Source of the DNA: a virus
DNA: 27,597 nucleotides
Direction: 5' to 3' (one strand)
IMG/VR virus record: IMGVR_UViG_3300021961_000491
Coordinates: 1 to 27,597 of that record
In this document: positions 20,576-26,832 of the stretch, piece after piece
How the letters are laid out: each line of letters opens with the position of its first letter
Position numbering within the stretch: the stretch's first letter is position 1
Made by a program: the position numbers and the translations under genes
Notes under the pieces: model-generated
What the model was told of the DNA's origin: nothing
The model's input: the letters and a program-made list of their open reading frames with translations, nothing else
Databases searched by the model: none

Positions 20576-21286
20576 TCAATTCAGAGATTTTTTAATCAAG
20601 TTTTTGAACTTTGTGGTTGACCAACCATGTGATCTATCTAGAAAGTGTATTTTTACAGTTTCTCTACAACCAGTGATAACCTTGTTTTTATAGTCATCGC
20701 CCAAGAATCTGATGTTGGGGTTTATGCGATCAATCAACTTGATCAACTCAGTTTCGGTATGATATACAATCACATCATCTACATATTTCAACGCCAACAA
20801 AGTATTTTTACGCTCGTCAACCGACAATATTGGTTTGATTTTTGCTGGATTCTCTAAAGTAGGATCTGCGTGTAGCCCCACAACAAGTTTATCACAATGA
20901 TCTTTTGCTTGAGAAAACATAGCAATATATCCAGGGTGCAATACATCAAATGAACCAGCCAAAAATCCCACAGTTTTTTTGGATATTCTACGTTTCCATT
21001 CGTCGGCACTGATGGCTTTGTCGTCAATAAACAGATCATAGCTGGGTTTATTTTTATCAACCAATAAATGATACTTAACGTTCCACTCAGACAACTGTTT
21101 TACTGTCAATCCGTGCCAATCCATTCCACTAGATGCACCTCTTGCGGTAAACAATGTAATATGGTGGCCATGATCATACAAAGTATTGACGCTCTCAATC
21201 ATGTCTGGTAACGGTTTAGCTAAAACATAATCGTGGGACGAGTCTGTTGTACAAAGTGTGCCGTCAATATCAAAGCAATACTTCAT
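20576..21286 (-). CDS. HAD phosphatase fused to nucleotidyltransferase
   Basis: A 236-residue two-domain protein. Residues 1-100 are a HAD-type phosphatase: DIDGT at 6-10, TLFTARG near 44-50, and KPSYDLFIDD with Lys80 and Asp88-89. Residues 106-235 are a cytidylyltransferase-like domain: AGSFDVLHPGY, QAKDHCDKLVVGLHADPT, SVDERKNTLLALKYVDDVI and NIRFLGDDYKNKVITG. Such domains transfer a nucleotide to a sugar or polyol phosphate. The HxGH motif reads HPGY, so the second His is a Tyr. The ATG overlaps the stop of the sugar kinase gene (ATGA), pointing to coupled synthesis of consecutive enzymes. The substrate is not known; a heptose is a guess from the neighbour. Confidence 0.82.
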   Translation of the reverse strand: MKYCFDIDGTLCTTDSSHDYVLAKPLPDMIESVNTLYDHGHHITLFTARGASSGMDWHGLTVKQLSEWNVKYHLLVDKNKPSYDLFIDDKAISADEWKRRISKKTVGFLAGSFDVLHPGYIAMFSQAKDHCDKLVVGLHADPTLENPAKIKPILSVDERKNTLLALKYVDDVIVYHTETELIKLIDRINPNIRFLGDDYKNKVITGCRETVKIHFLDRSHGWSTTKFKNLIKKSLN

Positions 21287-26004: not shown

Positions 26005-26040
26005 AACAAAAAAGGTCAGCACTTTTGATGCTGACCTTTT
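26005..26040 (-). terminator. Rho-independent terminator of the RNA gene cluster
   Basis: A perfect 12-bp stem (AAAAGGTCAGCA with TGCTGACCTTTT, 7-base loop) is followed by a T run on the minus strand, 5 bases after the CCA end of the tmRNA. Confidence 0.88.
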
Positions 26041-26045
26041 GTAAA

Positions 26046-26433
26046 TGGTGGACCCGGGGAGAGTTGAACTCCCGTCTTTGAATATATAATCACCGCACTC
26101 TACACGCTTGTACGATTTTGAATTTGTTAGGAACCGTAATCTAATATCGTCAAAAAATGCGGTTCTTAGGATTTGCAATATGTCAACTGAAACCACAAAT
26201 CAACCTTTTCAGTTCTAGTCCGTAAATGACATTTGTTTCGATTACCGAACTCTCATCGAACAAACGGGCAACCCTTATTAGGCTGCAACTGCTGCGACAT
26301 CCTCGTAAGAGAAGTCATAGCTAACTACATTTTCCTTAGCGGTTAATGTTTTGATGGATCTTTAGAGAAGCCAACCATCATCTTCTACGTGCGTACAATG
26401 ACCGAATACTCAAATCGATACCAGTACGAGCCC
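26046..26433 (-). ncRNA. ssrA: tmRNA (one-piece, phage-encoded)
   Basis: The 5' strand GGGCTCG (26433-26427) pairs with CGGGTCC (26056-26050) as a 7-bp acceptor stem with wobble pairs. The encoded 3' end is ACCA. The T-arm reads GGGAG-TTCAACT-CTCCC. The conserved tRNA-like 5' region is TGGTATCGATTTGAG. A reading frame at 26340-26281 gives the tag AKENVVSYDFSYEDVAAVAA with stop codons TAA TAA, starting at a GCT resume codon. A CGCAC/GTGCG pairing fits the P2 helix. tmRNA releases stalled ribosomes and tags the unfinished protein for proteolysis. The order tag-then-T-arm shows the linear and not the permuted form. A terminator follows. Confidence 0.93.
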
Positions 26434-26438
26434 GAAAT

Positions 26439-26510
26439 TGGTTGCTGGAGTGGGTGCCGCCCCCACTTAAACTGGCTTATGAAACCTGTTTCCTTGCTGA
26501 AGGTCCAGCA
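26439..26510 (-). tRNA. tRNA-shaped RNA with CAU anticodon and non-canonical D and T arms
   Basis: A 72-base element fits a tRNA layout: acceptor TGCTGGA/TCCAGCA (perfect 7 bp), discriminator A, encoded CCA, an anticodon stem CAGGT/GCCAG (one A-A mismatch, one G-T) with loop TTCATAA giving anticodon CAU, and a 5-bp T-stem GTGGG/CCCAC. The D-arm is cut to CCTT-CAGC-AAGG and the T-loop is GGCGGCA instead of TTCRANY, so the usual elbow contacts are absent. It is 7 bases from tRNA-Gly and 5 bases from tmRNA, as expected of a co-processed RNA. It may be a degenerate or a specialised tRNA-Met/Ile. The call is mine from hand folding. Confidence 0.55.
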
Positions 26511-26517
26511 GTTAAAT

Positions 26518-26591
26518 TGGAGCGGGTAGCGGGAATCGAACCCGCATAATCAGTTTGGAAGACTGACACTCTACCATTGAGCTATACCCGC
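26518..26591 (-). tRNA. tRNA-Gly (UCC)
   Basis: A full cloverleaf: acceptor GCGGGTA/TACCCGC, D-arm GCTCAATGGTAGAGT, an anticodon loop with TCC, T-arm GCGGG-TTCGATT-CCCGC, discriminator T and encoded CCA. It leads the RNA cluster on the minus strand. Confidence 0.97.
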
Positions 26592-26604: not shown

Positions 26605-26832
26605 TTATTCTTTCAGAACAATTGCTTCACATTCATAGTTGTGACTGTCTTTGTATTCGTCACAATATCGCTTGGCAGCTTTTTCCGTCAGAAACACACG
26701 ATGAATTGATCGTTCCGAATCACCATTGCGTACAACGTACACAGTAATCGGTAGTATCTTTTCATTTTTGATTACTTCATTGGCAAACAAAACGTTGCCG
26801 ATCAAGATCAGTGCTACTATCAATTTCTTCAT
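26605..26832 (-). CDS. Small exported protein, unknown function
   Basis: A 75-residue protein with a clear signal peptide (MKKLIVALILIGNVLFA, cleavage likely before NEV). The mature part is about 58 residues, with VYVVRNGDSERSIHRVF and two Cys (YCDEYKDSHNYECE) that could form a disulphide bond in the periplasm. I recognise no family. It lies 14 bases before the tRNA-Gly gene. Confidence 0.75.
   Translation of the reverse strand: MKKLIVALILIGNVLFANEVIKNEKILPITVYVVRNGDSERSIHRVFLTEKAAKRYCDEYKDSHNYECEAIVLKE

Follow-up and report, generated by a model that had tools for sequence, protein, structure and literature searches.

The 27,597-nt stretch of viral DNA analyzed here (positions 1 to 27,597 of IMG/VR record IMGVR_UViG_3300021961_000491, hereafter the window) encodes on its minus strand, from 26510 to 26439, a 72-nt cloverleaf with anticodon CAU and an encoded CCA, flanked by a tRNA-Gly and a tmRNA. 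Sequence comparison makes it quite probable that this CAU element is a functional phage tRNA decoding AUG, most likely an elongator-type tRNA-Met, with a rewired elbow. Given relatives with compensatory changes, the element is real, well beyond chance. Its type is part of a large, hitherto overlooked set of phage tRNAs whose elbow joint, near-universal in other tRNAs, is rebuilt from other letters that match each other; as a result, the window's type mostly escapes standard gene finders. Covariation among the sequences establishes the four stems, the couplings 18–55 and 19–56, and the recurrence of this architecture across anticodons and unrelated phages.

A probable compact CAU tRNA between tRNA-Gly and tmRNA

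The RNA gene array and the parts of the element are laid out as follows (evidence in parentheses):

26518–26591, minus strand: ordinary tRNA-Gly (UCC), first RNA gene of the array (ARAGORN/Rfam)
26439–26510, minus strand: predicted compact CAU tRNA with rewired elbow and encoded CCA (fold, covariation, covariance model)
26504–26510, minus strand: acceptor 5' strand TGCTGGA, partner 26443–26449 (pairing kept despite a wholly different acceptor in L085/L091)
26492–26503, minus strand: D-arm CCTT-CAGC-AAGG, with A18 at 26498 and G19 at 26497 (abuts the acceptor stem, no 8–9 linker)
26469–26491, minus strand: anticodon stem of 8 bp with one A·A mismatch and loop TTCATAA; CAU at 26481–26479 (fold and alignment)
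26450–26466, minus strand: T-arm GTGGG-GGCGGCA-CCCAC, with G55 at 26460 and C56 at 26459 (alignment, elbow survey)
26439–26442, minus strand: discriminator A73 and encoded CCA (sequence)
26046–26433, minus strand: tmRNA, tag AKENVVSYDFSYEDVAAVAA (ARAGORN/Rfam)
26010–26040, minus strand: intrinsic-terminator-like hairpin and T run at the end of the array, beyond the tmRNA

On the minus strand the element reads TGCTGGA-CCTT-CAGC-AAGG-AAACAGGT-TTCATAA-GCCAGTTT-AA-GTGGG-GGCGGCA-CCCAC-TCCAGCA-A-CCA. It starts 7 nt after the tRNA-Gly and ends 5 nt before the tmRNA, matching the 5–7 bases given in the first-pass annotation, whose list of features (a perfect 7-bp acceptor, CCA, CAU in a 7-base loop, a 5-bp T-stem, the T-loop GGCGGCA and a 12-nt D-arm with a 4-nt loop) is present in full. 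Fold and alignment correct the length of the anticodon stem from 5 bp to the 8 bp given above. The predicted fold, a cloverleaf with a lengthened anticodon stem, beats all but 3 of 200 shuffles (z = −2.45).

Set against the canonical tRNA family (RF00005), the element has the 7-bp acceptor, the 5-bp T-stem with a 7-nt loop, U33 in a 7-nt anticodon loop, and CCA. It lacks the two-nucleotide linker (U8, N9), the 5-bp anticodon stem, and both G18G19 and T/U54-U55-C56, in place of which it carries CAGC and GGCGGCA; the D-loop/T-loop contact 18:55 plus 19:56 is recovered by covariation alone. Neither ARAGORN nor RF00005, even at E ≤ 5, sees the element. The literal GG and TTC are thus absent, as originally described, but the elbow itself is not missing, as 18:55 and 19:56 covary. 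We define here a rewired-elbow class, in which a D-loop C-R18-G19-C is coupled to a T-loop G-N55-C56-R-G-C-A, with either A18/G55 or G18/U55. The window belongs to it with CAGC/GGCGGCA; its own family pairs CAGC with GGCRGCA, or CGGC with GTCGGCA in L002 and L101 (L numbers denote sequences in our collection), and CGGC/GTCGGCA recurs in an unrelated tRNA-Ser of L125.

Relatives with compensatory stem changes

Relatives were sought in IMG/VR by neighbor-protein search and degenerate DNA patterns, and about 24 distinct relatives of the CAU element were found in its contigs. In L085 and L091, 52 nt are 96% identical to the window, yet the acceptor stem is entirely different with its pairing retained. 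Among 19 aligned relatives (alignment A2, used for all stem counts because a MAFFT alignment of all 24 misplaced the acceptor of members with longer D-arms), the acceptor (7 bp), D (4 bp), anticodon (8 bp) and T (5 bp) stems are paired in 93.6% of cells, and compensatory changes on both sides are seen in 20 of the 24 pairs. Relatives lacking such changes, the outcome that had been named beforehand as counting against a functional RNA, thus did not occur. The covariation score in the same alignment was 0.793, vs. 0.237 after shuffling and no more than 0.13 for slid versions, and RNAalifold, run unguided, returned nearly the same structure. Invariant or nearly so are the D-arm UU-CRGC-AA, U33, the AA before the T-stem, the T-loop GNCRGCA and G53-C61, with the constancy of the D- and T-loop letters and of CCA partly by construction, since the search patterns included them. 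Relatives of the compact type have no linker between acceptor and D-stem. Ruled out as relatives on sequence were L097, L099, L109 and L115, as well as an unrelated family (L082–L084, L086–L090 and L092) that a pattern built on TCATAA also matched.

A covariance-model search (model R1), together with the patterns, also yielded relatives with other anticodons: Thr (CGU, UGU), Asp (GUC), Glu (UUC), Gly (UCC), Gln (CUG), Lys (UUU), Phe (GAA) and Ile (GAU). These sit in similar tRNA clusters, and their discriminators fit their anticodons (e.g., G73 for the Asp and Gln relatives). In L131 (446-kb record) the Asp relative forms an ordinary cloverleaf, in which U8-A9 is present and CAGC caps a D-stem of 6 bp, and it differs chiefly in its D-arm and elbow; TA precedes the D-stem in both L123 and L131, the Asp relatives. 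Such a range of anticodons argues for a tRNA architecture and against a one-off mimic.

The gene order tRNA-Gly / CAU tRNA / tmRNA is conserved in L004, L094, L106, L108, L110 and L114, L002 has CAU tRNA / tmRNA, and other relatives are embedded in long tRNA clusters. The tmRNA tags of relatives end in GAVAA or ALAA.

Elbow letters change together across phage tRNAs

A cloverleaf finder blind to loop sequence, which required an encoded CCA (as did the search patterns) and gave 0 matches in 60 kb of shuffled sequence, returned 410 distinct tRNA candidates in these phage contigs. Their T-loops fall into TTCRANN, TGCRANN, GGCAGYA and variants, AGCRTTA, CGCRATA and others. Coupling was evaluated on 353 distinct D-loop/T-loop combinations, with identical pairs removed and relatedness otherwise uncorrected, and with positions 18–19 in long D-loops assigned by motif. 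The D-loop contains GG in 150 of 155 combinations with a U55-C56 T-loop; with G55-C56 it contains AG in 168 of 172 and GG in only 40. The association of U55 with G18 and of G55 with A18 is thus strong (Fisher p = 2e-47, kinship ignored). Where 18 and 19 are nearly fixed by D-loops of 3–4 nt, a count we restricted since the automatic parser for such loops misread ordinary D-arms, 32 combinations are AG/G55, 20 are GG/U55 and 3 are crossed (p = 9e-12), two of the crossed ones being AAGG, which contains AG.

The second contact behaves similarly: where C56 is replaced, the predicted 18–19 dinucleotide is present in 21 of 23 cases, vs. 12.3 expected with random D-loops. Swapped 19:56 examples include CAAC/GGTAGCA in a tRNA-Glu of L159, GU/UUA in a tRNA-Arg and AC/UGG in L140. 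Pair 54:58 occurs as U·A (237), G·G (43), A·U (41) and C·A (15). A four-Watson-Crick-pair kissing of D-loop and T-loop was also considered, which fails for CGGC/GTCGGCA; 18:55 plus 19:56 fits all. This covariation across phages suggests that the elbow contact is kept in altered form.

Both 18:55 states are found within 29 of 45 anticodons, which implies many switches. In several phage records all classifiable tRNAs are A18/G55 (20/20 in the 203-kb phage L227, 11/11 in L229, 12/12 in L155 and 9/9 in L112). As a control, 52 of 53 scored tRNAs from the cultured tRNA-rich phages Aeromonas 65.2, Ccr10, Phosso, Carin-5 and T5 were U55/C56 with GG, the lone exception being a T5 tRNA with T-loop TTTAA.

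Some further oddities surfaced in this survey. L227–L228 (record G006, 203 kb) and L229 (G009, 205 kb) carry nearly complete tRNA sets. At L227 13236, 15569 and 16191, T-loops CAGTCAA, TCCCCAA and TCGTCAA face D-loops that could give other 18:55 and 19:56 pairs (e.g., G18-C55, C19-G56), possibly further elbow types. CAU tRNAs with very short D-arms (3–4 nt loops) and other elbow types lie at L111 3658, L131 7663, L155 4682, L227 16115 and L236 6264, and short D-arms seem common among phage CAU tRNAs. The tRNA-Ile(UAU) genes at L226 13695–13787, L225 14510–14600 and in L155 measure 90–94 nt and have a long variable arm, which is unusual for Ile.

Distribution and detection

In these phage records, which are mostly fragmentary metagenomic contigs, ARAGORN found 132 of 137 canonical tRNAs but 1 of 42 of the window's type. 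Within the window's own clade, a tRNA-like gene of L004 (~860–933) with T-loop GGCAGCA was likewise missed by ARAGORN. This clade is T4-like: the terminase of the L002 record is 53% identical to that of Microcystis phage Mel-JY01 and 52% to those of Flavobacterium immuto phages, and the window's baseplate protein has the same neighbors. The terminase of the L125 record is quite different, with weak matches to other phages, and the rewired-elbow trait therefore crosses unrelated phages.

Outside this collection, blastn for relatives in cultured phages gave chance pieces only, R1 found no match in Mel-JY01, LR756508, immuto, PA5oct and Lak-A1, the closest records from cultured phages or complete genomes, and the 57 pattern matches in GTDB genomes included 0 forming a cloverleaf. 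There was no R1 match in 299 genomes of one phylum, a search run without a positive control, and one weak R1 match (26 bits) in a bacterial bin. A phage TruB, as a possible partner, was not found in 15 records, of which 3 encode a CCA-adding enzyme.

Amino-acid identity and alternative readings

The amino acid of the CAU element is probably Met, given the CAU anticodon, A73, U4-A69, the rarity of AUA in the window and the presence of tRNA-Ile(UAU) nearby in several relatives. The U4-A69 pair is as in elongator Met. The discriminator of the CAU relatives is A in most and U or C in a few.

The first-pass annotation had offered a tRNA mimic with a special role as one outcome. As a decoy, an uncharged or rarely used CAU RNA might soak up a tRNA-cutting host defense enzyme or toxin aimed at tRNA-Met, fMet or Ile2. 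The very conserved core beside a wholly different acceptor (window vs. L085/L091, above) would suit such a role, as would the ordinary CAU tRNAs in the same records (e.g., two in L085) and the known use of phage tRNAs against tRNA-cutting defenses (PMC10264068, PMC11555353). We nevertheless consider a decoy unlikely because anticodons for Thr, Asp, Glu, Gln, Lys and others are found on this same architecture; in addition, records with all classifiable tRNAs rewired suit tRNAs in use better than a single decoy, and CCA is always encoded in the set, though the search patterns and finder required it.

An isoleucine-2 tRNA, with CAU changed to lysidine and reading AUA, is improbable as well. The anticodon loop matches bacterial tRNA-Ile2 loops, and T5 carries a tRNA of this type. 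TilS, however, uses C4-G69 and the window has U4-A69, AUA makes up only 64 of the 420 Ile codons in the window, and tRNA-Ile(UAU) is often found in the same clusters.

An initiator-type tRNA, in which a weak 1:72 pair would allow formyltransferase to act so that the RNA starts phage proteins, is more doubtful still. The 1:72 pair is U-A or G·U in 10 of 11 CAU relatives vs. 139 of 340 other tRNAs, L145 has C1·A72 as in bacterial fMet, and T5 encodes its own fMet tRNA; yet the base of the anticodon stem lacks the G-C triplet, and contigs L085, L095 and L107 carry separate fMet-like CAU tRNAs (TGCGGGG...CCCCGCA/T) as well. Decay of a tRNA gene, also raised at first and in keeping with the unusual loops and the silence of ARAGORN and Rfam, is scarcely credible against strong compensatory changes in every stem, invariant loop letters, an intact CCA and a conserved order with the tmRNA. 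What survives of the initial interpretation is thus a real tRNA-shaped RNA in an RNA gene array, without the decay or the missing elbow and with a mimic role made less likely by the many anticodons.

Comparison with known unusual tRNAs

In shape, the CAU element appears closest to tRNAPyl. In Methanomethylophilus alvus, Methanosarcina and Desulfitobacterium, tRNAPyl has a short D-loop (4 nt in M. alvus), no acceptor/D-stem nucleotide in M. alvus, a lengthened anticodon stem, a small variable loop, no G18G19 and no TPsiC (PMC7609411). The element shares the short D-loop, the missing linker, the long anticodon stem (8 bp rather than 6), the small variable loop and the absence of GG and TPsiC, but its anticodon is CAU rather than CUA, its elbow letters covary (A18/G55, G19/C56), and its type sits among ordinary phage tRNAs with many anticodons. 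It resembles bacterial tRNASec in placing a 4-nt D-loop on a D-stem that is long in tRNASec (6 bp, as in the L131 Asp relative with its loop CAGC) and only 4 bp in the CAU element, which differs further in its 7/5 acceptor/T-arm and in having neither a long variable arm nor UCA.

In the Steinberg-Cedergren model, a longer anticodon stem is compensated by a shorter linker to the acceptor. The CAU element shares this compensation with type I mitochondrial tRNASer(UCN) (PMC7609411), which keeps G18G19 and TPsiC whereas the phage type rewires both. T5 likewise has tRNA-like stable RNAs (RNA1–3) and three CAU tRNAs inside its tRNA cluster, but its scored tRNAs keep the U55/C56 and GG elbow, apart from the exception noted above. 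Staphylococcal cell-wall tRNA-Gly has U-G-C for T-Psi-C in its T-loop and UU for the D-loop GG, and leaves translation; in the phages, by contrast, A18 accompanies G55 and the change extends to many isoacceptors. Altered 54:58 or D/T-loop contacts are also found in suppressor tRNAs selected in the laboratory. The open literature, as far as covered, describes non-canonical Sec, Pyl and mitochondrial tRNAs (PMC7609411), and we found in it no account of elbow letters that covary in phage tRNAs.

A proposed working of the rewired elbow

In our model, a D-arm cut down to a 4-bp stem and the tetraloop C-A18-G19-C would stack directly onto the acceptor, and the anticodon stem is extended to 8 bp, so that a 12-bp D/anticodon stack is kept (4 + 8, equal to the 6 + 1 + 5 of the Asp relatives). 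A similar length compensation has been proposed for mitochondrial tRNAs. At the elbow, G19-C56 would be kept, A18·G55 would replace G18·U55, and G54·G58 would replace U54·A58 inside the T-loop. U55-C56-R57 forms a UNR-type turn. In G55-C56-R57, by placing A18 behind R57 in the stack, a GNRA-like turn with a sheared A18/G55 pair may form instead, which would explain why letters 18 and 55 change together. Stacking of G18 within the T-loop has been described, and the flat face that the ribosome and RNase P read is G19-C56 (PMC4810234), which the CAU element would retain. We infer that the element folds into an L with an intact elbow, that it is processed together with its two RNA neighbors, tRNA-Gly and tmRNA, and that it accepts Met and is active on the ribosome.

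Such rewiring may have been selected since enzymes that read the elbow or T-loop (host nucleases, TruB/TrmA-type modification) would no longer recognize the tRNA. Lacking U55, and in most cases U54 too, tRNAs of the window's type would be no substrate for TruB or TrmA at these positions, and would go unrecognized by an enzyme that cuts or reads the standard T-loop/elbow. Known evasion by phage tRNAs lies in the anticodon loop, and T-loop or D-loop change is unmentioned (PMC10264068). It is tempting, if speculative, to propose that in some phages the entire tRNA set carries a re-coded elbow (A18·G55, swapped 19:56, G54·G58 or A54·U58). Such tRNAs would be competent on the host ribosome yet escape elbow- or T-loop-reading enzymes such as host tRNA nucleases or TruB/TrmA-type modification, in effect an immune or orthogonal set. 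If selection is by defense, the known anticodon-loop evasion would extend to the elbow.

Few contacts in biology are as conserved as 18:55 and 19:56, and covariation can therefore seldom test them. These phages supply natural double swaps, with 19:56 apparently as G-C, A-U, U-A and C-G, and so offer a direct way to ask if the letters, or the shape alone, matter to the ribosome, RNase P, EF-Tu and modifying enzymes. Almost every tRNA of the window's type is overlooked by standard annotation, which, for these phages, biases tRNA counts as well as ideas on what phage tRNAs are carried for. Compact, differently wired tRNAs would also be useful scaffolds for tRNA engineering.

Neighboring genes in the window

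Upstream of the tRNA-Gly, positions 26605–26832 encode a small protein with a signal-like N-terminus, and L002 has a comparable coding stretch upstream of its array. An ORF at 20576–21286 matches the phosphoheptose isomerase and heptose kinase/adenyltransferase families and adjoins methyltransferase and sugar epimerase genes (20.5–25 kb), a surface-sugar gene block in a phage.
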